From positions 1-45,821 of the forward strand of contig WUQU01000500.1 of assembly GCA_009889605.1 (NCBI GenBank): DNA of 45,821 nucleotides, written 5' to 3'. Below the pieces are notes generated by a model. It saw only the letters and a program-made list of their open reading frames with translations. It had not been told where the DNA came from and did no database searches. Positions 21,699 through 38,239 of this stretch are shown here, piece after piece. Position 1 is the stretch's first letter, and the number at the start of each line of letters is the position of its first letter. Both the position numbers and the translations under genes were made by a program. The DNA is from Candidatus Bathyarchaeota archaeon. GTDB lineage: Archaea; Thermoproteota; Bathyarchaeia; Bathyarchaeales; Bathycorpusculaceae.

Positions 21699-24047
21699 TT
21701 GGCTAACAAAAACGTTCGCATAAAAATCGACGAATTAAAAACCGGTGCAAGCCTAATTAAAAATTTGGAGTTGTCCCTTGGAAAAGTGGCTGTGGAGTCT
21801 TGGACAGAACCTATGGGACCAACGCCTTTCCCATCGCTTACCAGTCTAAGAGAGTGGGATATGAAACTTTTACAGCGCTACAAGCCTTTTTACGTGCCAT
21901 TATGTGACTTATGTTGCCTTTGCACTTTTGGCAAATGTGACTTAACAGGGAACAAACGTGGTGCATGCGGAATAGATATGGCAGCGCAGCAATCTAGAAT
22001 AGTGTTATTAGCCTGCTGTATTGGCGCGGCAACTCATATTGGCCATGCGCGTCACATGGTAGAACATTTGATTGAAAAATTCGGCCGTAATACTCCATTG
22101 GATGTTGGAGGGCTAAATGTTCAGGTTGAGGCGCCCATAATTCGCCTTGTTTGTGGAATTAAACCTGAAACCTTAGGCGATTTGGAAGAAGCTTTAGATT
22201 ATGTTGAAACCCAGCTTACTCAGCTTTTAGCTTCAACTCATACTGGGCAAGAAGGAAACAACCTTGATTTTGAGTCAAAGGTTTTCCATGCTGGAATGAT
22301 AGACCATGTGGGCCTGGAAGTTGCAGACATAGCCCAAATCGCTGCCTATGGTTTTCCAAAGGCAGACCCTGAAGCTCCTTTGGTTGATTTAGGATACGGC
22401 ACCGTAGACTCATCTAAACCCGTAATACTGTGCATTGGGCACAATGTTATTCCTTCCATCGGAATTATTGATTATATCACTGACAATGCTCTAAACGATA
22501 AAATCGAAGTTGTAGGTTTGTGTTGCACCGCCCACGACATCACGCGCTACTACTCCCGCGGAAAAATAATTGGGCCTATCTCTTGGCAATTGCGTTTTAT
22601 AAGGAGCGGCATTGCCGACTTAGTAATTCTTGACGAGCAATGCATAAGATGCGATGCTTTTGAAGAAGCTGGCAAAGTTAAAGCGCCCGTCATAGTTACC
22701 TCAGAGAAAAACTGCATGGGTCTCCCAAACCGCACCAACGATAGTGTGGAAGCCATAGTGGAAGATCTTGTAAGCGGCAAAACTCCTGGTGTTTTAATCC
22801 TAGACCCTGAAAAGGTCGGCAAAGTAGCTGTCGAAGTAGCCTTTAAAGTTGCTCCTCTACGAAAGAAACTGAAAGCCCTTCCAGAAATCGAAGAAATCAT
22901 AAATATGGCGGTTACTTGCCGCCAATGCAACCTCTGCAAACGTGCGTGTCCTCAAAATCTCAATATTCCCGAGGCAATAAACGCTGCCCTTCAAGGCTCA
23001 CTGGGTAAGCTTGCCGAACTTTACGAAGCTTGCGTGGGATGCGGCCGTTGTGAACAAGCATGCCCCGTGGATTTACCCGTTCACAGTTTCATAATAAAAG
23101 CTGGCGAACAAAAACTAAAATCAGAAATCTACAAGTGCCGAGCTGGAAGGGGCGCTATACAAGACTTAGAAATAAGAAAAGTTGGCAGTCCAATAGTGCT
23201 CGGCGAAATCCCCGGTGTAATAGCAATGGTGGGATGCGCCAACTATCCTAAAGGAGGCCAAGAAGTCGCTGAAATGTGCCGCGAATTCGCAAAAAGACGT
23301 TACATAGTGGTTGCCTCTGGCTGCGCGGCAATGTCCGCTGGAATGTACAAAAACGAAGAAGGAAAAACCGTTTACGAAGAGTTCCCAGGCGAATTTACCG
23401 CTGGCGGCGTTGTAAACGTCGGCTCGTGTGTTGCAAACTCCCACATAGCAGGGGCAGCAATAAAAATTGCCAACATTTTTGCGAAACGCAATCTCAGAGG
23501 CAACTATGAAGAAATAGCCGACTATATATATAACCGAGTTGGCGCAGTTGGCCTTGCGTGGGGTGCATATTCGCAAAAAGCTGCAGCCATTGCCGCAGGG
23601 TTCTGGAGGCTTGGTGTTCCAGTTATAGTTGGCCCTCACGGTAGCAAATACCGACGCATGCTTTTAGGAAGAGCCGATAAAGAAGAAGACTGGTATGTTT
23701 ACGACGCAAGGACAGGAGAAAAAGTGTATGGTGGGCCGGCGCCTGAGCATTTATTCATAGCTGTTGAGACAAAAGAAGAGGCCATGGTTAAAGCTGCCAA
23801 GCTATGTATGAGGCCTAATGACACGTCAAAGGGGAGATCTATTAAGCTCACCCACTACTTAGACTTGCATAAGCGTTTTTACGGCGTATTGCCTGATGAC
23901 ATTCACTTATTTGTAAGAACCTTTGCGGATATACCTATAACTATGAAGGATGAGATAATAAAGGTCCTTGAAGAGAAGAATTGGAAAGAGAAAGCGATTC
24001 CCGACCCTACGCTTATTCCAAGAATGATTAGAAAAAAACCAGCATAA
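21699..24047 (+). CDS. cdhA: CODH/ACS alpha subunit (Ni-Fe CO dehydrogenase)
   Basis: Catalytic CO dehydrogenase of the archaeal acetyl-CoA decarbonylase/synthase; reduces CO2 to CO for acetyl-CoA synthesis (or the reverse). 782 residues, the full archaeal CdhA length. The first cysteine cluster is CDLCCLCTFGKC (C69-C80); two ferredoxin-like clusters are CRQCNLCKRACP (from C407) and CVGCGRCEQACP (from C445). C-cluster regions include GLCCTAHDITRYY and VNVGSCVANSHIAG. TTG start with a GAGGT Shine-Dalgarno. First gene of the operon; normally followed by cdhB (epsilon), but here three redox genes follow and epsilon is fused to the last. Confidence 0.97.
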   Translation: MANKNVRIKIDELKTGASLIKNLELSLGKVAVESWTEPMGPTPFPSLTSLREWDMKLLQRYKPFYVPLCDLCCLCTFGKCDLTGNKRGACGIDMAAQQSRIVLLACCIGAATHIGHARHMVEHLIEKFGRNTPLDVGGLNVQVEAPIIRLVCGIKPETLGDLEEALDYVETQLTQLLASTHTGQEGNNLDFESKVFHAGMIDHVGLEVADIAQIAAYGFPKADPEAPLVDLGYGTVDSSKPVILCIGHNVIPSIGIIDYITDNALNDKIEVVGLCCTAHDITRYYSRGKIIGPISWQLRFIRSGIADLVILDEQCIRCDAFEEAGKVKAPVIVTSEKNCMGLPNRTNDSVEAIVEDLVSGKTPGVLILDPEKVGKVAVEVAFKVAPLRKKLKALPEIEEIINMAVTCRQCNLCKRACPQNLNIPEAINAALQGSLGKLAELYEACVGCGRCEQACPVDLPVHSFIIKAGEQKLKSEIYKCRAGRGAIQDLEIRKVGSPIVLGEIPGVIAMVGCANYPKGGQEVAEMCREFAKRRYIVVASGCAAMSAGMYKNEEGKTVYEEFPGEFTAGGVVNVGSCVANSHIAGAAIKIANIFAKRNLRGNYEEIADYIYNRVGAVGLAWGAYSQKAAAIAAGFWRLGVPVIVGPHGSKYRRMLLGRADKEEDWYVYDARTGEKVYGGPAPEHLFIAVETKEEAMVKAAKLCMRPNDTSKGRSIKLTHYLDLHKRFYGVLPDDIHLFVRTFADIPITMKDEIIKVLEEKNWKEKAIPDPTLIPRMIRKKPA

Positions 24048-24055
24048 ACTAAAGT

Positions 24056-24062
24056 TGGAGGC
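24056..24062 (+). promoter_or_regulatory. Ribosome binding site deciding the start of the NuoG-FrhB gene
   Basis: TTGGAGG (GGAGG 24057-24061) lies eight bases before GTG 24070, ideal spacing. The ORF track uses TTG 24055, which lies inside this signal and is therefore unlikely. Confidence 0.6.
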
Positions 24063-24069
24063 TATTGAT

Positions 24070-25506
24070 GTGGAAAACCAAGAAGTAACTTTAACAATCG
24101 ACGGAGTAAAAGTGAAAGCTCAAAAGGGAACCCCAATATTGGAAGTTGCAAGGCAAATTGGCATAGAAATTCCTGCGTTATGTTATCTCCGTCTTCTTTC
24201 ACCATATGGTTCCTGTAGGGTTTGCTCCGTCGAAGTAACCACCCCCACTGGCCGTAAAAGGATAGTCACTTCCTGCAATTATCCTGCTGAAGAAGGCCTC
24301 ATTGTTGAAACAAAATCTGAAAGAGTTGTAAAAATTCGCAGAAAACTTCTAGAGCTTTTGCTGGCACGTTGTCCCAAAGTTGTAAGAATAAAGAATCTCG
24401 CTTCGCTTTATGGTGTTAACGAAACCAATTTGTGGGTTGAAAATGACTCTGAAGATTGTATTCTCTGCGGATTGTGTGTACGTGTATGCAGCGAGTTAAT
24501 CGGTGTTTCAGCCATAAACTTTGCAAACCGGGGAGTAAAACGGGTAGTAACTACACCGTACAATGAGTTTTCAGAAGATTGTATAGGATGTGGGGCTTGT
24601 GCCATCGTCTGCCCAACTGGATCAAAAAGGGTTCGCACCAATAATTATTCAACCATGAGACCACTGGCTGGCCCTAAAAAAGATGAACAAATAGGCGTTT
24701 ACAGCGACATTACATCCGCAAAGAGTTCCATTGAAGGACAAGACGGAGGCGTAGTCACCGCCCTGCTTGTTTCTGGATTGGAAAAAGGCTTTTTCAACAA
24801 AGCGATTGTGGTTAAACGCAAAAACAGTTACAAAGCTGAAGCCTTCATAGCTGAAAAAGTTGAAGACTTAATCAACGCAAGAGGAACCAAATATCTCCGA
24901 GTAAAAATCGTCCCCAAACTGAAAGAGTTAATAAAAAATGGAGAAAGAAAAATCGCTGTTGTAGGCACTCCATGCCAAGCCAGAGCCGCCAGAAAAATTC
25001 AGCAAACCCTCCAACAAGAATATCCCGATTTGGACATCACAATAATTGGTTTATTCTGTTATGAAGCTTTCGATTATGATAAACTTAAGGAAGAAACAAA
25101 ACGCCTTTTGAACGTGGATCTGGACTCTTCAGAAAAAACTCAGATACGCAAAGGAAAGTTTATCGTAACAGTGAACGGGCAAGAATACTCTTGCAAAGTT
25201 AAAGATTTGAATAGCGCCATAGAAAAAGGATGCGTTTATTGTAACGATTTTCCGGCGTTATTTGCAGACATATCAGTCGGCGCTGTGGGAAGCGATGAAG
25301 GCTTCTCAACAGTGATTATCCGAACAGAAAAAGGTAAGAAACTTTTCGAAAACACCGATTTGACATTTGGGCAAGTCAAAATTGAAGAAGTTTCAAAATT
25401 AACTGCCTTGAAAAAGAACCGCGCAAAGGAAAATTTTGCGCCATTCATCGAAGAAATCCATGTAACGCGCTCAACTGGCAAATGGGTGGTTGGAGATGGT
25501 GCTTGA
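24070..25506 (+). CDS. NuoG-type iron-sulfur N-terminus fused to FrhB-type F420 oxidoreductase
   Basis: 478 residues from GTG 24070. Residues ~5-75: NuoG/HydA-type [2Fe-2S] domain (C38, C49, C52, C69; PYGSCRVCSVE). The usual H-x3-C-x2-C-x5-C [4Fe-4S] site is missing, with only LLARCPKVV left. Residues ~125-185: two [4Fe-4S] sites CILCGLCVRVC and CIGCGACAIVC. Residues ~215-478: FrhB/FpoF domain (GQDGGVVTALLVSGLEKG, VVGTPCQA, IIGLFCYE, KGCVYCND), which in known relatives binds FAD, F420 and Fe-S. It therefore resembles HydA of bifurcating hydrogenases with the H-cluster domain replaced by an F420 module. Coupled to cdhA and the NuoE gene. Confidence 0.88.
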   Translation: MENQEVTLTIDGVKVKAQKGTPILEVARQIGIEIPALCYLRLLSPYGSCRVCSVEVTTPTGRKRIVTSCNYPAEEGLIVETKSERVVKIRRKLLELLLARCPKVVRIKNLASLYGVNETNLWVENDSEDCILCGLCVRVCSELIGVSAINFANRGVKRVVTTPYNEFSEDCIGCGACAIVCPTGSKRVRTNNYSTMRPLAGPKKDEQIGVYSDITSAKSSIEGQDGGVVTALLVSGLEKGFFNKAIVVKRKNSYKAEAFIAEKVEDLINARGTKYLRVKIVPKLKELIKNGERKIAVVGTPCQARAARKIQQTLQQEYPDLDITIIGLFCYEAFDYDKLKEETKRLLNVDLDSSEKTQIRKGKFIVTVNGQEYSCKVKDLNSAIEKGCVYCNDFPALFADISVGAVGSDEGFSTVIIRTEKGKKLFENTDLTFGQVKIEEVSKLTALKKNRAKENFAPFIEEIHVTRSTGKWVVGDGA

Positions 25507-25975
25507 AGAAAAAACAGAAAACAAAATAGATCAAATTATAGACAAATACGTGGGCAAAGAAGGCGTCCTAATACAGTTACTGCTTGAAATCCAGCGGGAA
25601 CTCAACTGGATACCGCGTGAAGCCGTAAAGAAAATTAACGAGAGATTAAAAATTCCTGAAAGCGAAGTATATCGGGTGGTAAGCTTTTACACCGCCATGA
25701 GCCTTGAACCACGAGGCAAATACTTAGTTAGGGTATGTGAAGGAACTGCTTGTTATGTACGAGGTGCGCAACGCATTCTTACAGCAGCTGAACGCGCGAT
25801 AGGCATTAAAGCCGGGGAAACAACAAGCGACTTAAAATTCACGTTGCAAACCGTGAACTGTCTAGGTTGCTGCGCCTTAGGACCAGTTGTAGAGATAAAC
25901 GGAAAGTACTACGGTTTACTTACACCCAAAACTCTTGAAAACATTGTGTCACATTTGGGAAGTGAACACTCATGA
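25496..25975 (+). CDS. NuoE/HydC-type [2Fe-2S] thioredoxin-like subunit
   Basis: 159 residues from ATG 25496 (TTG 25490 is the ORF-track start). N-terminal helical bundle (VLIQLLLEIQRELNWIPREA), then a thioredoxin-like [2Fe-2S] fold with VCEGTACYVRGA and VNCLGCCALGPVVEING, the C-x4-C / C-x3-C ligand set of NuoE. In HydABC-type enzymes this subunit relays electrons from the HydB FMN. It overlaps the upstream gene by 11 bases and the downstream gene by four (ATGA), so all three redox proteins are translated as a unit. Confidence 0.95.
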   Translation: MVLEEKTENKIDQIIDKYVGKEGVLIQLLLEIQRELNWIPREAVKKINERLKIPESEVYRVVSFYTAMSLEPRGKYLVRVCEGTACYVRGAQRILTAAERAIGIKAGETTSDLKFTLQTVNCLGCCALGPVVEINGKYYGLLTPKTLENIVSHLGSEHS

Positions 25976-28443
25976 TAAAGCTTAACTCAATTTCCGACCT
26001 AGAAAAACTGAGAAAAGAAATACTGGCAAAAAGAGATCCTAAAAAGCCTGTCATAGCCGTATGCATAAGCACGGGTTGTCTAGCTCTTGGGGCCCAAGAA
26101 GTTCTGGCTGCCCTCAAAGAAGAGATCCAAAAGCATGGTTTGGAAGGAAAAGTTGACATCCGATGCACAGGTTGTCTTGGCTTCTGTGAAGGCGGCCCCC
26201 GCATTGTTGTTTATCCCCAAGAGGTTTTCTACTTCAAAGTTAAGCCTTCAGATGTGCCGCTGTTAATCTCTAAAACATTGCTGAAAAACGAGGTGTTGCC
26301 CCACCTGCTTTATAAAGACACGGCAACAGGCAAAATTGCTTTAAGTCTTTCTGAAGTACCTTTCTATCGTTACCAAACCCGGCTTCTTTTGGAGGCAAAC
26401 GCCAAAATCGACCCCACAAGCATAGAAGACTACATTGCTCTAGGAGGCTATTCTGCTTTAGCTAAGGTTTTATCCGGCATGACCCCCCAGCAAGTTATCG
26501 AGGAAATTAAAAAGTCGAATCTTCGCGGCCGCGGTGGAGGAGGTTTTCCAACTGGGCGTAAGTGGGAAACTTCGCGCAACGCTCCTGGAGAGCCCAAATA
26601 TGTGATAGTGAACTGTGACGAGGGAGATCCTGGAGTCTTCGCAAACCGTGCTCTAATGGAGGGTAATCCTCACTCGATTCTCGAAGGTTTAATTATAGGT
26701 GCTTATGCTGTGGGCGCAAGTGAAGGCTTCATCTACGTTAGAGAAGAATATCCTTTAGCAGTAAAGCATATGCAAATAGCCATAGAGCAAGCTGAAAAAT
26801 ATGGGCTGTTAGGCGAAAACATTCTAGGTTCAGGATTTTCATTTAAAGTCAAAATTCACCGTGGCGCAGGCGCCTTTGTTTCCGGCGAATCCACTGCCTT
26901 GATGAATGCGATAGAAGGCAGAGTAGGGGAACCCCGGCCAAAGTATGTGCATACTGCCGAAAAAGGTTTGTTTGGAAAGCCAAGCGTACTAAACAATGTT
27001 GAAACATGGGCCAATGTGCCCCTAATAATAAACAACGGTGCAGAATGGTTCCGTTCCATAGGCACTGAAGGAAGTAAAGGCACGAAAATTTTCACTTTAG
27101 CCGGCAAAGTTAACAACACAGGCTTAATCGAAGTTCCCATGGGCATAACACTGAGAGAAATTATCTACAAAATAGGCGGAGGCATTCGAGGCAACAAAAA
27201 GTTCAAGGCTGTACAGGTTGGCGGTCCCTCTGGCGGAGTTATCCCTGAGCAGCATCTGGATACTCCAGTGGACTTCGATGAACTCACCAAGTTAGGCGCC
27301 ATGATGGGTTCCGGCGGAATAATCGTAATGGACTCTGACACTTGTATGGTGGATGTTGCCAGATATTTCATAAATTTCCTTTGCGGTGAATCTTGCGGTA
27401 AATGTGTACCTTGCCGTGAAGGGTTGAAGCAGGCTCGCAAAATATTGGATGAAATAGTTGCTGGGCGCGGAAAACCAGAACACATAAAGACTTTGCTAGA
27501 ACTAGCCGAAACAATGAAGGACGCTGCATTGTGTGCATTGGGCCAAACTGCTGCAAACCCCTTGTTAACCACCTTTCGGTACTTTGAAGATGAATATTTA
27601 GCCCACATTATCGATAAAAGATGCCCCGCGCTAGTGTGTAAGGGACTGTTAACCTTCTACATAGACCCTGAAGGGTGCTCAGGCTGCCATCAATGCTACC
27701 GAATATGCCCAGAACAAGCAATAGAAGGAGAACAGGATCAAATTCACGTTATAATACAAACTAAATGTACAAAATGTGGCCAATGCCATGATATATGCCC
27801 CCCAGAATACAAAGCTGTGCAGAAAATATCTGGAGAAGCGCCACCTCCAACAATTCCCCAAGAATACCGATGGATTAAGCAGCCTTGGCAAACCGCTGAA
27901 GTTACCTCCACCCGACGCGCCAAGGTCATCGCCAACGCCAATGTTGCGGTAAACCTAATTCAAAAGTCTCTGCGCCCAGTCCTAGTTGTTGGCAACACCG
28001 TCACCGAAGTTGAATTCGAAGGCAAGAAGCTGATCGACTATGTGATTGAACTTGCAAGAGAAACAAACATTCCGGTCATCGCAACATCTCATGTGGTTGG
28101 AGAGTTTCTAAAAAGAAATTATAGGCCCGCCGCTGTTATGTCTTTAATGGAGGTAGGAAACCGCATAGTAGATAAAGAATGGAATAGCGTTGACGGCGAA
28201 GGCTCATATGACATGGTTCTGTTCATAGGATTACCCTACTACATGAGCTACGAAATTTTGTCTGCTCTGAAAAACTTTGCCACAAAACTTGTAACCATAA
28301 ATTTGGATAATATGTATAATCCTCAAGCAAGCTGGTCGCTTCCAAACGCAAGCGTTAAAGAGTGGATCAACTTTCTCATGGGTATGACTTTAAAATTTAA
28401 AGAAGTGAAACAAAATGAGCATGTTCCAAGATATCCCAGTTGA
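25972..28443 (+). CDS. HydB/NuoF-type flavoprotein fused to CODH epsilon subunit (CdhB)
   Basis: 823 residues. Domains: thioredoxin-like [2Fe-2S] (C31, C36, C65/C68, C72); FMN/NAD(H) domain (RGRGGGGFPTGRKWE ~185-199; NCDEGDPGVF ~214-223; GAGAFVSGESTAL ~298-310), with the DEGDPG form seen in bifurcating HydB; SLBB ~370-450; [4Fe-4S] CGKCVPC (475-481) and C521; two ferredoxin sites (C569-C579, C599-C609); linker; and residues ~645-807, which match the CODH epsilon fold (LIQKSLRPVLVVGN, NIPVIATSHVVGEFL, DGEGSYDMVLFIG, ATKLVTINLDNMYN). No in-frame ATG lies between Met515 and Met723, and only a GTG at codon 616 without Shine-Dalgarno, so epsilon is not separately translated. The 3' end overlaps cdhC by 29 bases. 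Confidence 0.9.
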   Translation: MIKLNSISDLEKLRKEILAKRDPKKPVIAVCISTGCLALGAQEVLAALKEEIQKHGLEGKVDIRCTGCLGFCEGGPRIVVYPQEVFYFKVKPSDVPLLISKTLLKNEVLPHLLYKDTATGKIALSLSEVPFYRYQTRLLLEANAKIDPTSIEDYIALGGYSALAKVLSGMTPQQVIEEIKKSNLRGRGGGGFPTGRKWETSRNAPGEPKYVIVNCDEGDPGVFANRALMEGNPHSILEGLIIGAYAVGASEGFIYVREEYPLAVKHMQIAIEQAEKYGLLGENILGSGFSFKVKIHRGAGAFVSGESTALMNAIEGRVGEPRPKYVHTAEKGLFGKPSVLNNVETWANVPLIINNGAEWFRSIGTEGSKGTKIFTLAGKVNNTGLIEVPMGITLREIIYKIGGGIRGNKKFKAVQVGGPSGGVIPEQHLDTPVDFDELTKLGAMMGSGGIIVMDSDTCMVDVARYFINFLCGESCGKCVPCREGLKQARKILDEIVAGRGKPEHIKTLLELAETMKDAALCALGQTAANPLLTTFRYFEDEYLAHIIDKRCPALVCKGLLTFYIDPEGCSGCHQCYRICPEQAIEGEQDQIHVIIQTKCTKCGQCHDICPPEYKAVQKISGEAPPPTIPQEYRWIKQPWQTAEVTSTRRAKVIANANVAVNLIQKSLRPVLVVGNTVTEVEFEGKKLIDYVIELARETNIPVIATSHVVGEFLKRNYRPAAVMSLMEVGNRIVDKEWNSVDGEGSYDMVLFIGLPYYMSYEILSALKNFATKLVTINLDNMYNPQASWSLPNASVKEWINFLMGMTLKFKEVKQNEHVPRYPS

Positions 28444-29839
28444 TGTAGGCGTAGTCTACGAAGGCGAAAGAATTCGAAGAAAAGACATGCAAGTTGAGCT
28501 CGGCGGACCGGACGTCAAAGAAAAATTTGAACTAGTGCGCGTCAAGAAAGCGGATGAAGTTGAAGACGGCAAAATAACCCTCATAGGCCCAGACATCAAG
28601 GATATGGAAGAAGGCAAAAGCTACCCCCTCGGTATATTCATAGAGGTCGCAGGCGCAAAACTTGACCCTGAACTTGAAGGAGTAATCGAAAGACGCATAC
28701 ACCAATACTGCAACTACATCGAAGGCTTCATGCACCTCAACCAACGCTACGACATATGGATTCGACTAAGCAAAAAGTCCTTCCAGAAAGGCTTCAACTC
28801 CTTCCAACTTCTTGGAAAAGTTTTGCATAGGCTTTTCAAAAGCGAACTGCCCATAGTAGAGAAACTGCAAATAACCTTCATAACCGACCCAGAAAAGATA
28901 AAGCCAATTTATGATGAAGCCTTGCAAATTTATGAGGCAAGGGACGCGAGGGCAAGAGGCCTCAAAGACGAGGAAGTGGACAAGTTTTACGGATGTGTTC
29001 TATGCCAGTCTTTTGCGCCGACACACTGCTGTGTCATAACTCCTCAGCGCTATTCCAACTGTGGAGCCATAAGCTGGTTTGACGGGAGAGCCTCAGCAAG
29101 CATAGATCCCAAAGGCCCGGTGTTCGAAATTGAGAGAGGTGAAATCTTGGACCCTGTTAAAGGCGAGTTTTCCGGAGTAAACGAAGCTGTCAAAAAGAGG
29201 ACCTTGGGTGAAGTTACCCAAGTTTGGCTTTACACTGCCTTTGGTAAGCCTCATACTTCATGCGGCTGCTTCGAGGCTGTGGCCTTCTACATACCTGAAG
29301 TAGACGGTTTCGGCATAGTGCACAGAGGCTATCCAGACGTAGCGGTGAATGGGCTTCCATTCTCAACGATAGCCGACTCAACGGCTGGCGGACGCCAGGT
29401 AGACGGTTTCCATGGAGTTTCCATAGAATATATGCGCTCCAAAAAGTTTCTGCAAGCTGACGGTGGATACACCCGTGTGGTCTGGATGCCAAAAGAGGTT
29501 AAAGAACGGGTTAAGAATTTCATTCCAGCCGAGCTTGTGGATAAAATCGCCACTGAAGAAGACGCAAAAACAATTGACGAGTTGAAAGCTTTCCTAGAAG
29601 CGCGAGGCCACCCTCTTGTGCAGCGTTGGAAGAAAGAAGTTGAAGCTGTTGCTGAAGAAGCTGCTGCGCCTGTAGAGGTGAAAGAAGAGGCTCCAGAAGC
29701 TGTGTCAACACCAACGTTAACTGCGGCAACGTTACCGGTAACTGTAGGCGGTGTCAAAATAATCTTAAAAGATGCTAAAATCTACGCGAAGAAAGTCATA
29801 ATTCGCACAGTGAAAAGCGAAAAGGAAAACAAAGGGTGA
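28415..29839 (+). CDS. cdhC: Acetyl-CoA synthase beta subunit
   Basis: Carries the Ni-Ni-[4Fe-4S] A-cluster where CO, methyl and CoA are joined. 474 residues, the short archaeal form without the bacterial CODH-binding domain. A-cluster ligands are in GCVLCQSFAPTHCC (from C194) and TSCGCFEA (C283, C285). The last ~70 residues are an Ala/Glu-rich linker followed by a short basic beta tail, which varies among archaea. ATG start eight bases after GAAGTGA, inside the 3' end of the epsilon fusion gene. Confidence 0.97.
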   Translation: MSMFQDIPVDVGVVYEGERIRRKDMQVELGGPDVKEKFELVRVKKADEVEDGKITLIGPDIKDMEEGKSYPLGIFIEVAGAKLDPELEGVIERRIHQYCNYIEGFMHLNQRYDIWIRLSKKSFQKGFNSFQLLGKVLHRLFKSELPIVEKLQITFITDPEKIKPIYDEALQIYEARDARARGLKDEEVDKFYGCVLCQSFAPTHCCVITPQRYSNCGAISWFDGRASASIDPKGPVFEIERGEILDPVKGEFSGVNEAVKKRTLGEVTQVWLYTAFGKPHTSCGCFEAVAFYIPEVDGFGIVHRGYPDVAVNGLPFSTIADSTAGGRQVDGFHGVSIEYMRSKKFLQADGGYTRVVWMPKEVKERVKNFIPAELVDKIATEEDAKTIDELKAFLEARGHPLVQRWKKEVEAVAEEAAAPVEVKEEAPEAVSTPTLTAATLPVTVGGVKIILKDAKIYAKKVIIRTVKSEKENKG

Positions 29840-29846
29840 AAATTCT

Positions 29847-31061
29847 TTGCCGGAAAAAGAAAAAGACCTGCTAGGGCTAAAACTGGATCCACGTTTGCTT
29901 GAGGCGCTGGCCAAATTTCAGGAAATCGAAATTGAAGACTTTGAAATGGACGTGGGCGATTTAGAAATATGGCTTCAACCGGGCGTCATTAAAGGCGTTC
30001 CGGCTGTTCCAACAGTAAAAGCTTTGCCTACAAAAGCAAAACCATCAAAAATTGTTGAAGTAGATTTTGTTCCACCAGTTGAAACTTACCCTGGCAGGGT
30101 GGTTGAAGTCAAGCTTGGAGCCAAGAAAGGCGAAGGCGGCACTCGTGGAAAATCCATAATCATCGGCGGGGAAACCACTCCTGCCTTCTACACTTTTGAA
30201 GGAACAACGCCTCACCCACCAGTCATCGCTTTAGATGTTTTCGACATGGAAGTTCCCCTTGCAAAAGCTGTGAAAATGCATGTAAAAGACGTTGTAGGCG
30301 ACCCGGCGGCTTGGGCCAAACTTGCCGTGGAAAAGTTCGGTGCAGACCTGATAACCATTCATTTGATAAGCACAGACCCGCTTCTTAAGGATGCTTCGCC
30401 AAAAGAGGCAGTGAAAACCGTTGAGGCAGTGGCTCAAGCAGTAGATGTGCCCCTCATAATTGGCGGTTGCGGCGACCCCGTCAAGGATGCAGATGTTTTT
30501 CAAGAAATTGCTGAAACATTTGCTGGCGAAAGATTCTTGATAAGCTCGGTTACCAGAGACATGGATGTGGAAAGATGCGCCAAATTCATCAAGAAAACTG
30601 GACATGCGGTTCTCTCTTTTACACCTATGGATCTTAACTTGGCTAGAGAGTTGAATAGGAAACTCTATGATTATTTGGCGAAAGAGGACATTGTTATGGA
30701 CTTGACGACGGCGGCTCTTGGCTATGGCCTTGACTACGCTTTCACTAACATGGAGCGGGCTAGGTTGGCAGCGTTGATGGGCGACCCCGAACTGGCTCAT
30801 CCAATGTCTTCTGGAACAACAAACGCTTGGGCAGCCAGAGAAGCTTGGATGAAAATGACTCCAGAGTTTGAACCCCGAGAGCTTAGGGGGCCCCTATGGG
30901 AATTAACCACTGCTGTTACGCTTTTGCTTGCAGGCGTAGACCTATTCATGATGATGCATCCTGCCGCGGTAAAAACAATGAAAGACATTATAAACCAGCT
31001 TATGAGCGGCGGAGCTGGAAACGCTGGGAAACTTGTTGAATGGGTTTCTATGAAAATATAG
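29847..31061 (+). CDS. cdhD: Corrinoid Fe-S protein small subunit CdhD
   Basis: Delta subunit of the corrinoid/iron-sulfur protein that passes the methyl group from methyl-tetrahydropterin to the A-cluster. 404 residues: an N-terminal ~100-residue region with a proline-rich linker, then a TIM-barrel (VIALDVFDMEVPLAKAVKMH, VPLIIGGCGDP, GHAVLSFTPMDLNLAREL, MSSGTTNAWAAREAW). TTG start seven bases after the cdhC stop. Partner of CdhE downstream. Confidence 0.95.
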   Translation: MPEKEKDLLGLKLDPRLLEALAKFQEIEIEDFEMDVGDLEIWLQPGVIKGVPAVPTVKALPTKAKPSKIVEVDFVPPVETYPGRVVEVKLGAKKGEGGTRGKSIIIGGETTPAFYTFEGTTPHPPVIALDVFDMEVPLAKAVKMHVKDVVGDPAAWAKLAVEKFGADLITIHLISTDPLLKDASPKEAVKTVEAVAQAVDVPLIIGGCGDPVKDADVFQEIAETFAGERFLISSVTRDMDVERCAKFIKKTGHAVLSFTPMDLNLARELNRKLYDYLAKEDIVMDLTTAALGYGLDYAFTNMERARLAALMGDPELAHPMSSGTTNAWAAREAWMKMTPEFEPRELRGPLWELTTAVTLLLAGVDLFMMMHPAAVKTMKDIINQLMSGGAGNAGKLVEWVSMKI

Positions 31062-31079: not shown

Positions 31080-32513
31080 ATGAGTGGAAAAGGAGCTAAG
31101 GCCAAAGCAAGCGTGAAAGAATTAAGCCCCATAGACGTTTACAAGCTTTTGCCAAAGATAAACTGTAAAGAGTGCGGCGAAGAAAACTGTATGGCTTTCG
31201 CCACGAAACTTGTCAACCGCGAAGCCACCCTTGAAAAGTGTAAACCGCTTCTGAAAAAGGAATATGAGAAATCCTATAAACAGTTGAAGGAGCTATTGAA
31301 GCCGGCAGTAAAAGAAATAGTCATAGGCGAAGGCGAGAGGGCTGTTAAAATCGGCGGAAAACTTGTAATGTACCGCCATGAACTTGCATACTTTAACCCA
31401 ACAGCCATAGCCATAGACGTAACAGACGAAATGAACGAAGAAGAAATAGTAAGCCGGATAAAAAGCGCTGAAGAATTAAAATTTGATTATATTGGGAAAA
31501 CTTTGAAGCTTGACATGATTGCGGTGCGTTCCACATCAAACGACCAGGACAAATTTAAGGCAGCGGTCAAAAAAGTGGCTGAAACCACCGCGTTGCCGCT
31601 TATCCTATGTTCTTTAAACCCGAACGTTTTAGAAGCCGGACTGATGGCTGTGCCCAAAGCGAGACCCCTTCTTTACGCAGCCACTCAAGATAATTGGCGG
31701 GATATGGCTGAACTTGCCCTAATGTACAATTGCCCCTTAACAGTTTTTGCGCCTAATAACCTTAAATTGTTAAAGTCTTTGGTGAAGACTCTGCTGGAAT
31801 ATGGTGTTGAAGATTTAGTGCTTGACCCAGGAACTATGCATGGTGAAGGCTTGGCTGAAACCCTAAACAATTTCGTGATGATTCGCAGAAGCGCATGTAA
31901 GCAAGGCGACGAGCTTTTAGGCTTTCCACTGCTCGGAGTGCCCATGACTGTTTGGATGGAAAGCGCTGGAACTGCTCATGAAATTGTTACGTGGCGGGAG
32001 GCGGGGTTGGCAGCCATGCTTATTGTGCGTTTTGCAGACGTTCTAGTGATGCACAGTCTAGACGGTTGGGCGTTGCTTCCTAACCTTGTGCTGAGACAGA
32101 ACATTTATACAGATCCGAGGAAACCTGTGGCTGTAGAAGCCGGCCTAAAGGCCTTTGGAAACCCTGATGAAAACTCGCCTGTGATGTTTACTTCAAACTT
32201 TGCCATAACCTACTATACCGTAGCCGCGGACATTGAGGCGTCGAAAATAAACGCTTACCTGCTTGTGGTTGACACCGAAGGCTTAGCCGTTGACCCTGCT
32301 GTTGCTGGAAGAAAACTTACCGCAGACAAAGTGGCGGAAGCCCTAAAGGCTTCGGGTGTAGAAAACAAAGTAAAACATAGAAAACTTATAATTCCTGGAA
32401 AAGCAGCACGCTTAAGCGGAGAAATCGAAGAATTAACCGGATGGCAAGTCCTAGTTGGCCCAAGAGATTCTTCAGAAATCCCAAAATACTTGCAGGAAAA
32501 ATGGCAACCTTAA
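31080..32513 (+). CDS. cdhE: Corrinoid Fe-S protein large subunit CdhE
   Basis: Gamma subunit of the corrinoid/iron-sulfur protein. 477 residues. N-terminal [4Fe-4S] domain KINCKECGEENCMAFATKLV with C29, C32, C37 and C54, then a TIM barrel that binds the methyl-pterin and a C-terminal B12-binding domain (GLAVDPAVAGRKLTADKVAE through GWQVLVGPRDSSEIP). ATG start 18 bases after the cdhD stop. Last gene of the operon; no cooC maturation ATPase or methyltransferase gene follows within the window. Confidence 0.96.
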   Translation: MSGKGAKAKASVKELSPIDVYKLLPKINCKECGEENCMAFATKLVNREATLEKCKPLLKKEYEKSYKQLKELLKPAVKEIVIGEGERAVKIGGKLVMYRHELAYFNPTAIAIDVTDEMNEEEIVSRIKSAEELKFDYIGKTLKLDMIAVRSTSNDQDKFKAAVKKVAETTALPLILCSLNPNVLEAGLMAVPKARPLLYAATQDNWRDMAELALMYNCPLTVFAPNNLKLLKSLVKTLLEYGVEDLVLDPGTMHGEGLAETLNNFVMIRRSACKQGDELLGFPLLGVPMTVWMESAGTAHEIVTWREAGLAAMLIVRFADVLVMHSLDGWALLPNLVLRQNIYTDPRKPVAVEAGLKAFGNPDENSPVMFTSNFAITYYTVAADIEASKINAYLLVVDTEGLAVDPAVAGRKLTADKVAEALKASGVENKVKHRKLIIPGKAARLSGEIEELTGWQVLVGPRDSSEIPKYLQEKWQP

Positions 32514-32596: not shown

Positions 32597-33061
32597 TTAG
32601 GGCACCATTGAAGGTTTATATCTTTTCAAGTATTCCTTTGGTGTTGGAAAAACTGATTGAACGCGTTTAATGCGTTTTTTCGCGTTAATGGTGTCCTGTA
32701 AAATTATAAAGCCTCTAGGTGTGCTGAAGTTTTCAACTTCACCGTTTTCCCTTTTCCTCCAAACCTTTATGCAGTGGTCAACCATGCAGCTTAAAACACA
32801 GGCACCGCAGTATATGCATAACTCTTTTGTTATGCCGACTTCACCTTTTTTCCAAAACAGCGCGTTTGTCGGGCAAACTTTAATACAAAGCTTACATTCA
32901 ACCCCTAAACAAGTAAACTTGTTAATGCTTATGTCACCATCAACAAAAAACTCTTTAACCCCTAAAGGAGAAAGAAGCTCTGTTCTCCGTTGTTTTTTCT
33001 CCTTTTCAGCCGTTTCCACTAATAACTGGAATATGTCTGAACCTGAAGAACCGGCAAACAT
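32597..33061 (-). CDS. Dicluster ferredoxin-like protein beside the CODH operon
   Basis: 154 residues from ATG 33061 (ORF track extends to 33118; a TATA-like TTTTTAAAG about 37 bases upstream favours 33061). It has an N-terminal helical region (~1-50), then CLGVECKLCIKVCP and CIYCGACVLSCMVDHC, which give two potential [4Fe-4S] sites, and a basic C-terminus. The second site is followed by KVWRKRENGEV. Convergent with cdhE and divergent from cooT. A role as electron carrier for, or assembly helper of, the CODH complex is inferred only from position. Confidence 0.75.
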   Translation of the reverse strand: MFAGSSGSDIFQLLVETAEKEKKQRRTELLSPLGVKEFFVDGDISINKFTCLGVECKLCIKVCPTNALFWKKGEVGITKELCIYCGACVLSCMVDHCIKVWRKRENGEVENFSTPRGFIILQDTINAKKRIKRVQSVFPTPKEYLKRYKPSMVP

Positions 33062-33204
33062 GTTTTCGCCGTTCAACTTTAGCTTTTGGCGTTTCTTTAA
33101 AAAGTAGAGAATCTGCATATTATAACTATTTGTTTGGAAACTCTTTTTCCCTACATCAAAAGGAATATAACCAGCAAAGGTTCTATTCTGGCTCGGCGAA
33201 AAAT

Positions 33205-33391: not shown

Positions 33392-34210
33392 CTAAAATAA
33401 AGCAGCAAGAAAACCGGAGACCAACCCAAAAATTATTGGGAAAGGCAGCCCTGGAAACATTCCTTGTTTCTCCAAAATTTTAAAAGTCAAAAAGCATCCA
33501 GCTAAAATTCCCACGATAGAGGCTGTGCAAGATAAAAATCCAAAATTTAAAAGCATATGCCCGGAAAGCATAGAATAAAATGTCAAGTCGCCAAGTCCCA
33601 TTTGAACATCTTTAAAAGAGAAGCTTAAGCCACGGAAGCGTTCAAGCCCTTCTTTGGCTATTTTTCCAACAGGGCCTCGGTAAACTGCGATTGCGTCGTA
33701 AACAGCCAAAAAACATAGAATTAGAACGGTGCTCAAAGTTTGAATTGAAGCGCCTAAAAATGTTCCAAGAGCGCCGCCCAACAGAATAACTATGAAGTCG
33801 CCGATTTTACTGCGCGTCCTAAAAATTATGTAACAAGCAAAAGCCGTTATGGCAATTGAACCTGAAATTGCCAGCTCGTTTCGTGGTAAAGGGGCAAAAG
33901 AAAGCGCGGCAAACAAGTATACTAGCGAAAGCGTGAAAAACGCCGTTGTCAACGCGAAGCCCGTAACAAAAGCAATCAGCCTGTGGCTTTTGGTTTTTAA
34001 AAGGAAAAGTAAAAGGGTAGCTCCAGCTCCAACTAAAAGGACAAAATAGAAAGCGTTACCAACTGAGCCGACTGGATCTTCAGGAAAAGGTGCAACGTTG
34101 TATGGTTTAATGGAAGCCCACATTAGAAGGGAAGCGCATGCAACTCCGAAAAGCAAACTAACCAAAACAGGCGCTAGATAGACTAAATCGGCTTTGAAAC
34201 CATTGCTCAA
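33392..34210 (-). CDS. Presenilin/SPP-type intramembrane aspartyl protease (family A22)
   Basis: 272 residues, about nine membrane segments. The two catalytic motifs are visible: LAVYDAIAVY (YD) and QMGLGDLTFYSM (GLGD), followed by MFPGLPFPI, a PAL-like element. Archaeal members cleave membrane proteins or signal-peptide remnants. ATG overlaps the archaemetzincin stop by four bases, so it is translationally coupled to another protease. Intact. Confidence 0.9.
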   Translation of the reverse strand: MSNGFKADLVYLAPVLVSLLFGVACASLLMWASIKPYNVAPFPEDPVGSVGNAFYFVLLVGAGATLLLFLLKTKSHRLIAFVTGFALTTAFFTLSLVYLFAALSFAPLPRNELAISGSIAITAFACYIIFRTRSKIGDFIVILLGGALGTFLGASIQTLSTVLILCFLAVYDAIAVYRGPVGKIAKEGLERFRGLSFSFKDVQMGLGDLTFYSMLSGHMLLNFGFLSCTASIVGILAGCFLTFKILEKQGMFPGLPFPIIFGLVSGFLAALF

Positions 34211-36160: not shown

Positions 36161-38239
36161 TTATTGCTGAGCGTTTGCCTCCTTTAAGGAGGGGTTTCCT
36201 ATCTGCTTTCTTGATTTTCTAAAGGCTAGAAGAGCTGCAGTTGCCCGCCGATTACTGTTAAGGCCAGAATAACTGCGATCCATGTTGTTGGAAAAAGCTC
36301 TATTTGAGGGATGCCATCCGAAAAGGTTTCCACAGTGAAGTAAATGGTCTCAGAAGCACCAATATTTCCGTCGACATCTTCTGCATAAACGGTTATGCGG
36401 TGGGAAACGACGGATAACCCGGTTAGGGTTATGTTTCCAGCGATGGTTACGTTGGCTTGTCCGTCTAAACTATAAGCAATCCATAAAACTGGCTTACTTA
36501 CAGTGAAGGTTAATGGAACATCTGGTACGTTATATGTTTTGTTTTCTGGCGAAATAATAGGAATAACAGGAGGCTTAACGTCCACAATGTTTTCTAGGAA
36601 CTCTGGAATTGCAACTGGTTTCATTAGTGGGTGATTGTCTTGGTTATTCTCATTGATAATGTAAGGAGTGTCTCCTATACAATCACCATCAGCGTCTGTG
36701 CCGTTGTAGTCGCTCCAATAGTTTCCTTCATTGCCGTCGTCCCAAAAATTGGCGGCGCCGCCTACTAGTTTTGGCGGTTCCGGTTCGCCGGGGAAAACCC
36801 AGATTGGGGCAACATGCGCTTGAAGTTTTTCTGCGGGGCTGTTATTGATGAAGTTATTGTGGTGTATTGTGTTATTTTTGTGGGATCCCTCTAGTTCGAT
36901 GCCCCAACCATTGTTCTTTGCGATAGTGTTTAATGTAATTGTGTTTTCGAATGCATTGCTAATCCATATGCCCTTATCATTCCTTGAAATGTAATTTCCA
37001 ATGATTGTGCCGTTTGGACCGTATCCGAAGCCGATTCCGCAGCCCTTGTTTAGTGAGATGCTGTTTCCGGTGACGTTTGAATTTTTAATGTTGCGGAAGA
37101 AAATTTCGTTTCCCCCCATTCCTTGTTATATGGTTCATTGTAACAGTATTGCTGGTTGCGGGTTCGAAGTTTATGCCATCTCCAGCATTAGCGGTTATTG
37201 TGTTGTTTGAAATGACGTTGTTGTTCGAGTTGCCATCAAGACGGATGCCATATCCATTGTTATTCGTGATGGTATTGCCAGAAATCATGTTATTGGAAGA
37301 TCCCCAGAGGATTATGCCATTCAAATTGTTTGCTATGGTGTTGCCGCTAACTCTTGAATTAGTCGTGTAGCAAAGCAAAAGCCCACCTCCGTTGTGTTCA
37401 AGGTGTAAACCCTGAACTGTTATGCCGCTGCAGTTCCTTAATACCACCCAACCCGCGTTGGAGGGCACGGTTCTATTGTGCTGTCCTACCCAATAATAGA
37501 TTGGTTTGCCGTTTATCTTGTTCGAGGTGTCAATGTTACTGACAACATAGACGCTTTCTGAAATTGCGTAATTGTTGTTCGCAAACTGGTTATTTCTAAA
37601 AACAACGTTTGAAGCGTAAACCGCCACTCCATAAGTGTTATTCGGTGTTATTCGCAATGTAGTTATCTGAAACTTCGCTTCCGGATGAAAAATCGTAAAA
37701 TGCGATGGCGCAAGTGTTGTTAGTTATCGTGTTGCCCAAGACTTTGTTGCTTCTTGGGGATGCTGGCAGACCATAGTTTAACCAGGTAAATTTAATGCCG
37801 TATGTGAAGTTGCATATTTTTAGGTTCCTTATTGTGACGCCGTTTCTTTCTTGAAGGAAGATTCCTGTCCCGTTTCCATTACCTTGGAGAGCGTGGCCTG
37901 CACCATCAACAACTATACCATCACATAGAATCACAATAGTGTTGTAGATGTCGTCTGTTAAAGTGTAAACATTACCGCTGCGGCGAATTTTGGCGGTTCC
38001 TTCAACTGTTCCATCGCTGTTAATTAGGATACCGGGGGGATTGTTTCTGGAATGAAATTTGCTGATGATAGATTAACAAGTATCGTCTCAGCTACTGCAA
38101 AGAACAAGAGGGCTGCAAGAACCAAGGCCACGAGAAGACTTCTCGGCAAATGTCCGTTCCCTAAGTGGAGACTTGAAAAGGCAAAAATAAAATTTTTTGG
38201 ATCTCCTTTACCGCTAACTATGTTAGACAGTTTTCGCAA
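36161..38239 (-). pseudogene. Right-handed beta-helix (NosD/PbH1-type) cell-surface protein, four frameshifts
   Basis: TTG at 38239. Signal-anchor SLLVALVLAALLFFAVAETI; then NPPGILINSDGTVEGTAKI and an Asn-rich parallel beta-helix (VVDGAGHALQG, then repeats such as SGNTITNNNGYGIRLDG); a YWSDYNGTDADGDCIGDTPY closing motif; an Ig-like domain (ISPENKTYNVPDVPLTFTV); and a C-terminal membrane anchor TTWIAVILALTVIGG with basic tail. The pieces are in successive frames with switches near 38030, 37645, the G6 run at 37112-37117 and 36244. Restoring these gives one ~690-residue surface protein ending at TAA 36161. Either decaying or assembly indels. Confidence 0.8.

Follow-up and report, generated by a model that had tools for sequence, protein, structure and literature searches.

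The contig WUQU01000500.1 of a Candidatus Bathyarchaeota archaeon (assembly GCA_009889605.1), whose 45,821 nucleotides are referred to here as the window, carries a cdh operon for carbon monoxide dehydrogenase/acetyl-CoA synthase (CODH/ACS). In this operon cdhB, the gene for the CODH epsilon subunit, is fused to the 3' end of hydB (bfuB), which encodes the NAD(H)-binding flavoprotein of Bfu-type electron-bifurcating enzymes. The same fusion, 813-823 amino acids long, is present in seven other Bathyarchaeia assemblies, so that eight assemblies from five genera carry it in all. This arrangement suggests that these uncultured archaea couple the chemistry of carbon monoxide directly to NADH, with no free electron carrier.

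A hydB-cdhB fusion gene within the cdh operon

A first-pass annotation of the window, made from the sequence alone, had described a single uninterrupted frame that joins a complete bifurcating-type HydB to CdhB, with no in-frame ATG from codon 516 to 722 and no separate cdhB between cdhA and cdhC. On all of these points it proved accurate. The 823 codons contain no internal stop; ATG codons occur in frame at positions 515 and 723 with none between, and the other in-frame starts are GTG codons at 616, 691 and 708. Near the junction, the eight fusion genes share no in-frame start codon, and internal initiation that would release a free epsilon subunit was rejected for lack of one at a shared position.

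The N-terminal part contains the full domain series of a bifurcating HydB: 2Fe-2S_thioredx (residues 23-101), Complex1_51K (179-350), SLBB (373-423), NADH_4Fe-4S (461-545) and a dicluster Fer4 domain (563-610). The signature of BfuB in the Bfu core (IPR011538, IPR019554, IPR019575 and IPR017896) is represented by PF01512, PF10531, PF10589 and Fer4 models within residues 179-610. Solved bifurcating BfuB/HydB chains match residues 19-612 with E-values down to 1e-227, the nearest being 9mqx, 7t2r, 8a6t and 7q4v. With the clusters named B1-B5 after Schut et al. (PMC9304861), the N-terminal [2Fe-2S] cluster B5 has cysteines C31, C36, C68 and C72; it is followed by the flavin mononucleotide (FMN)/NADH domain, the SLBB domain, the [4Fe-4S] cluster B1 and the C-terminal dicluster domain B3/B4 (C569-C609). 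Across an alignment of 32 sequences, none of the B2 ligands C458, H545, C551 and C556 varies, nor does either of the C-terminal [4Fe-4S] motifs.

The C-terminal part belongs to the CdhB family, as annotated, although the domain starts near residue 636 and not at 645, the beginning of the interval first proposed (645-807). PF02552 (CO_dh) covers residues 636-802 (E 3.3e-27), the NCBIfam cdhB model TIGR00315 covers 639-804 with 111.9 bits against a cut-off of 101.2, and the solved epsilon chains 1ytl, 9c0q, 3cf4 and 8riu_C match residues from about 635 to 800. In the AlphaFold2 model, the predicted local distance difference test score (pLDDT) is mostly 86-95 over residues 651-810 and below 50 at 637-647, and epsilon is thus modeled as a folded domain on a flexible joint. 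Among the top 50 Foldseek matches of the fusion all are HydB-like chains and none is an epsilon structure; therefore, assignment of the epsilon fold relies on sequence and pLDDT rather than on a structural match.

No separate cdhB was detected elsewhere in the 2.35 Mb assembly either (E<=10), an absence that carries some risk given its 621 contigs, 98.7% completeness and 7.0% contamination. The CdhA of the window is of the archaeal type, the bacterial model TIGR01702 scoring only 69.5 against a cut-off of 478. Between cdhA and the fusion lie two further genes of a Bfu-type module (Table 1). The A subunit contains Fer2_4 (residues 9-88) and Fer4 models (126-189), the domains that characterize BfuA (IPR001041 and IPR017896), to which an FrhB portion is joined as in F420-Bfu (FrhB_FdhB_N and FrhB_FdhB_C, the latter with E 5.5e-38). 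Judged by its domains, the module belongs to the Bfu enzymes and is closest to F420-Bfu, with bifurcation itself being predicted.

Recurrence, selection and apparent exchange of the cassette

The search for HydB-CdhB fusions in other Bathyarchaeia that the first-pass annotation had recommended produced the seven further assemblies; in a contig collection, a search found three loci in addition to the window, every one from Bathyarchaeota. Among 398 sampled genomes of the phylum, no fusion was seen outside Bathyarchaeia, and none was found in a plasmid collection. Gene order is constant in all eight operons: cdhA, hydA/frhB, hydC, hydB/cdhB, cdhC, cdhD and, where the contig extends far enough, cdhE. 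No cdhB match besides the fused copy appears at E<=1e-20 in any of the seven other carriers; in the other mapped Bathyarchaeia cdh clusters with cdhB on the stretch, a free cdhB of about 180 amino acids directly follows cdhA. Stops in the search output for G059, G061 and G062 had the appearance of split genes, but lie beyond the true end of single 814 amino acid frames.

This independent recurrence rules out an assembly chimera and in effect excludes the join at about 27.8 kb that had been raised as a concern. Despite the 621 contigs and 7% estimated contamination of the window genome and the mere 3.3x coverage of the SKW196 contig, an assembly or binning artefact is hardly credible when the same junction is present in eight assemblies of five genera, one of them a single 2.73 Mb contig.

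The fused epsilon domain is under purifying selection. Among G063, G061 and G059, dN/dS is 0.07-0.13 for the CdhB part, 0.05-0.07 for the HydB part and 0.05-0.09 for CdhA, values that are rough given that dS is near saturation. Relaxed evolution is thereby excluded, and a degenerate epsilon was rejected on this range (0.05-0.13). The first-pass annotation had named a separate cdhB accompanied by a decayed fused domain as grounds for abandoning its reading; instead, the fused cdhB is the sole copy and is constrained.

Stand-alone hydC-hydB-hydA/frhB clusters, relatives at 60-74% identity, occur in other Bathyarchaeia (for example, at loci L035, L036, L116-L118, L125 and L126), and at L119 and L122 lie near a canonical cdh cluster. 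The stand-alone HydB ends in ...ISGEPVPPPIPEEER-KR; in the alignment, the fusions retain this tail and continue directly with the first residues of CdhB. The simplest history would be insertion of three genes between cdhA and cdhB followed by loss of the hydB stop codon. We also observed that one stand-alone cluster (L116:7937-14650, genome G028) is located near a gene with an N-terminal methylene-tetrahydromethanopterin dehydrogenase domain, and that a HydB-like match (residues 2-560) within a 1055 amino acid stop-to-stop frame (G015:C164:24479-26203) is possibly another HydB fusion.

The fusion operons form one clade in the trees of HydB (support 100/99), the iron-sulfur part of HydA (97/95) and CdhB (98/98), pointing to a single origin of the fusion. 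In the CdhA, CdhC and CdhD trees they are scattered among canonical relatives, and the approximately unbiased test rejects a single fusion clade even when the low-coverage SKW196 contig is left out (p = 1.6e-4, 2.7e-5 and 1.8e-4, respectively). Therefore, resident cdh operons appear to have traded the cassette, at times along with cdhA; repeated reversion to a free cdhB would be a less economical history. In SKW196 (L033:7960-13109), CdhC and CdhD cluster with family f5, and CdhA and the cassette with the window, which reflects either recombination within one operon or a chimeric contig.

Table 1. Features of the fusion operon in the window and of its counterparts in other assemblies
Feature	Location	Strand	Evidence or remarks
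cdhA, CODH alpha	21699..24047	+	TIGR00314, 1207.6 bits; two CxxCxxCxxxC motifs (407-417, 445-455; E and F clusters)
BfuA/HydA-type subunit: [2Fe-2S], two [4Fe-4S], C-terminal FrhB-type domain	24055..25506	+	profiles, motifs, Foldseek
hydC/bfuC, NuoE-type, C1 [2Fe-2S]	25490..25975	+	PF01257 (IPR002023), E 3.2e-51; overlaps fusion start by 4 nt
hydB(bfuB)-cdhB fusion gene, 823 aa	25972..28443	+	single open frame; Pfam and NCBIfam domains
BfuB/HydB part, residues 1-612	25972..27807	+	Pfam domains; alignment with HydB chains
Junction, residues 613-635	27808..27876	+	alignment with stand-alone HydB; stand-alone tail (AVQKISGE..PPxIPxEYRW) retained, stop codon lost
CODH epsilon (CdhB) domain, residues 636-823	27877..28440	+	PF02552, TIGR00315, PDB epsilon chains, pLDDT
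cdhC, ACS beta	28415..29839	+	TIGR00316, 677 bits, model starts at residue 3; overlaps fusion 3' end
cdhD, delta	29847..31061	+	TIGR00381, 460 bits
cdhE, gamma, corrinoid iron-sulfur protein	31080..32513	+	NF003195, 635 bits
Fusion carriers besides the window	SKYB89 (= G050, L032), SKW196 (= G173, L033), SKW11 (= G072, L034)		
Further fusion carriers	G063 (L112), G059 (L113), G061 (L114), G062 (L115)		L112: single 2.73 Mb contig
A subunits with lost FrhB motifs	L034:7092-8537, L112:8353-9777, L113:8569-9990, L114:8218-9642, L115:11630-13048		

The surroundings of the operon vary. Upstream of cdhA, SKYB89 carries two genes for NifH/ParA-type P-loop ATPases resembling CooC (L032:2994-4588), and many relatives have open reading frames (ORFs) of similar size there; in the window, a glycosyltransferase-like ORF lies next to cdhA instead. 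Just downstream of cdhE and convergent with it, the window encodes a small protein with two ferredoxin-type [4Fe-4S] motifs (32597-33118, minus strand). Farther along the minus strand are a presenilin/signal-peptide-peptidase-type membrane aspartyl protease (33392-34210), next to an M54 peptidase (archaemetzincin) and a beta-CASP nuclease, and two overlapping ORFs in different frames with matches to NosD/right-handed beta-helix proteins (36226-37657), possibly a single frameshift-split gene.

Possible coupling of the bifurcating module to CODH

We lean slightly toward a model in which the fusion creates a tethered bifurcating module, with B3/B4 linked through epsilon to CODH, which would stand in for free ferredoxin on the low-potential side. 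The cassette would add a complete, HydABC-like bifurcating module to the archaeal CODH/ACS. Epsilon would keep its usual seat on CdhA, with which its operon position and its status as the only cdhB copy are consistent, and the covalent link at the C-terminus of BfuB would hold a swinging B3/B4 domain near the exposed F-cluster of CdhA, normally the site of ferredoxin. The known enzymes provide the elements of this model. In Bfu enzymes, NAD(H) and bifurcation share the FMN of BfuB, and ferredoxin has been proposed to receive the low-potential electrons by way of B2, B3 and B4 (PMC9304861); the B3/B4 domain of HydB is a mobile ferredoxin-like domain with two [4Fe-4S] clusters (PMC9499530); and in Ca. 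Ethanoperedens the ferredoxin domain of the CODH zeta subunit docks at the alpha/epsilon junction, which its authors take as a model for ferredoxin docking (PMC11493965). Because epsilon is fused directly behind B3/B4, the ferredoxin-like domain of BfuB would be placed at the usual site of free ferredoxin and would act as a tethered one. Also in favor of the model are the Bfu core domains of BfuB and BfuC, the bifurcating nature of the nearest solved chains, the invariant B2 and C-terminal cluster ligands, the fixed gene order in all eight operons and the trees, in which the cassette behaves as a unit.

Under this model, NAD(H) at the FMN of BfuB would form the high-potential branch, with NADH rather than NADPH assumed as the substrate from the family. 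A third, middle-potential partner X would react at the flavin adenine dinucleotide site of the FrhB-type domain in the A subunit and, by homology, is putatively F420. The net reversible reaction would be CO + NADH + 2 X(ox) <-> CO2 + NAD+ + 2 X(red), which from left to right would disperse the electrons from acetyl-CoA cleavage and from right to left would drive CO2 reduction for acetyl-CoA synthesis. The reported potentials (CO2/CO -520 mV, ferredoxin -500 mV, F420 -360 mV and NAD -320 mV, or about -280 mV in cells; PMC9304861) fit CO2/CO in the low, F420 in the middle and NAD in the high branch. The broader proposition, that a Bfu enzyme has CO2/CO as its low-potential substrate, reached via a swinging domain fixed to epsilon, and that the cassette, moving between archaeal cdh operons, swaps the carrier of the Wood-Ljungdahl pathway, strikes us as evenly poised.

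Several observations weigh against this model. Ligands for B1-B5 are all in place except at the fifth B2 position, where most Bfu enzymes have Cys or Thr and the fusion has Val496. No co-adapted CdhA residues common to both fusion groups were found near the E and F clusters, and a fusion-specific CdhA interface was rejected for want of convergent sites there. The QDGGVVTALL and GTKY motifs of the FrhB domain, intact in the window, SKYB89 and SKW196, are lost from five of the eight fusion operons, in which the remainder of the protein is kept. CofG and CofH, which make up FO synthase, score below the cut-off in all 13 genomes tested, including the seven other fusion genomes, and CofD was not found in G072 or in the window genome, where such absences must be read against a fragmented assembly. 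Finally, the A subunit could itself dock on CODH in the manner of zeta. As to Val496, it was considered as a hallmark of the fusion and rejected, given that most stand-alone relatives also have valine at this position; valine or isoleucine is found there in most FrhB-containing relatives and in the anaerobic methanotroph (ANME) relatives L039 and L040.

Because the genes for FO synthase were not found, F420 is doubtful as the third substrate. CofE homologs are present (CofE-family proteins occur in 90 of 91 genomes of the family, the patchier CofD in 57 of 91), as are FrhB-type proteins in the window genome, and Loh et al. reported F420-synthesis enzymes in Bathy-6 while leaving the source of F420H2 open (PMC7886697). 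Scavenged F420 or some other compound may serve as the substrate of the FrhB site, a divergent F420 route is a further option, and in lineages with degenerate motifs the site may be inactive. Foldseek comparison of the A-subunit model, which is weak at residues 127-216, retrieved F420-dependent sulfite reductase (Fsr), Frh and zeta (8riu_B), and also plant HCAR. HCAR is a relative of FrhB that is not known to use F420.

Alternatively, CODH could be the middle-potential substrate. The dicluster and FrhB half of the A subunit would dock like zeta on alpha/epsilon and pass electrons from CO to BfuBC, B3/B4 would still serve free ferredoxin, and the fusion would merely gather the parts, making the complex an archaeal counterpart of Codh-Bfu as drawn by Schut et al. 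Residues 135-442 of the A subunit indeed match zeta (8riu_B, E 2.8e-35), which sits at the alpha/epsilon junction (PMC11493965), and Codh-Bfu is predicted to have CODH feeding BfuA (PMC9304861). However, the covalent link is on the ferredoxin-side domain of BfuB and not on BfuA, the same A/FrhB subunit is found in stand-alone complexes away from cdh, and CO (-520 mV) is a poor middle donor relative to ferredoxin (-500 mV), as conceded by the authors of the Codh-Bfu proposal (PMC9304861). We regard this alternative as unlikely but deserving of serious consideration.

A plain, non-bifurcating CO:NAD+ (or NADH:CO2) oxidoreductase, in which electrons pass between CODH and FMN through B3/B4, with the FrhB part left as a structural relic, would accommodate the lost FrhB motifs, the incomplete F420 synthesis genes and Val496. 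This seems improbable to us, given that the His/Cys set of B2 and the B3/B4 domain, which are missing from non-bifurcating homologs (PMC9304861), are invariant here, and that the FrhB motifs persist in three operons while G063 has a separate intact FrhB gene (L112:3200-4060, minus strand) about 2 kb upstream of cdhA. Still less probable is a fusion that only fixes stoichiometry or assembly, with epsilon and HydB electronically uncoupled and CODH using free ferredoxin: fusions of neighboring genes can be neutral, and no co-adaptation of CdhA was seen, but the fusion is retained in all eight genomes across deep divergence and transfer, no free cdhB remains and the junction has no shared start codon.

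The way in which low-potential electrons are delivered governs both energy conservation in archaeal acetogens and the reduction of CO2 by CODH. According to Loh et al., it is unresolved where the Wood-Ljungdahl pathway of Bathyarchaeia obtains its electrons (PMC7886697). If the tethered-module model is correct, a CODH-bound bifurcating enzyme would answer this question for one group in the form of a concrete complex. Among Bfu enzymes, it would be the first to have an enzyme rather than soluble ferredoxin as the low-potential partner, and it would offer a natural design for CO2-to-CO reduction powered by NADH-level reductants. Exchange of the cassette between operons would imply that a complex regarded as ancient can have its electron input replaced.

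Comparison with known systems

The first-pass annotation had proposed that the fusion tethers NAD(P)H chemistry to a CODH that otherwise relies on free ferredoxin and that no enzyme of this kind had been described. The idea of an NAD(H) flavoprotein physically tied to CODH is supported, but the FrhB-type BfuA introduces a third redox partner; the covalent architecture is apparently undescribed, although an F420-CODH (PMC11493965) and the predicted Codh-Bfu (PMC9304861) are precedents for CODH with other partners. Closest to the module is F420-Bfu, which is uncharacterised and for which Methanosaetaceae are the only described source (Schut et al. 2022, PMC9304861). It shares the BfuBC core and, on BfuA, the F420-reductase domain of FrhB type, exactly the gene set of the stand-alone Bathyarchaeia relatives; the fusion operons differ in the attachment of CODH epsilon to BfuB and in the location of the genes within the cdh operon. 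Codh-Bfu, predicted in Firmicutes, likewise has Bfu core genes interleaved with CODH genes, but its CODH is bacterial, it lacks epsilon, FrhB and the fusion, and CO is taken to be the third substrate, via BfuA (PMC9304861). A separate bacterial link between Bfu and the Wood-Ljungdahl pathway is seen in an Actinomycetota metagenome-assembled genome, in which hydC-hydB-hydA lies beside CdhE/AcsC-, pterin-binding- and CooC-like genes (L048:255-9059).

The alpha2-epsilon2-zeta2 F420-CODH of Ca. Ethanoperedens (Lemaire et al. 2024, PMC11493965; PDB 8riu) is also an archaeal CODH with a dicluster and FrhB subunit, which is encoded in the acetyl-CoA decarbonylase/synthase (ACDS) operon and docked beside epsilon. 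It is without an NAD(H)/BfuBC module, bifurcation or a covalent fusion, and its zeta consists of the dicluster ferredoxin domain and FrhB only, whereas the A subunit of the fusion operons has an additional N-terminal [2Fe-2S] domain and is accompanied by BfuBC. In ANME-1, FrhB paralogs are likewise found beside CODH or NuoF-like genes, in FrhB7/CODH alpha-epsilon and FrhB8/NuoF-thioredoxin clusters (Chadwick et al. 2022, PMC9012536); those two associations are separate, whereas the fusion unites them within a single operon and a single polypeptide. With archaeal CdhB (PDB 3cf4, 1ytl and 9c0q) the epsilon domain has in common its family, its fold and its place in the operon, after cdhA and before cdhC; in the other Bathyarchaeia examined, CdhB is a free subunit of about 170-180 amino acids. 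In the open-licence literature, we found no paper describing a fusion of CdhB with NuoF/HydB. Thus, each half of the protein was known before; the novelty appears to lie in the covalent architecture and in its mobility.

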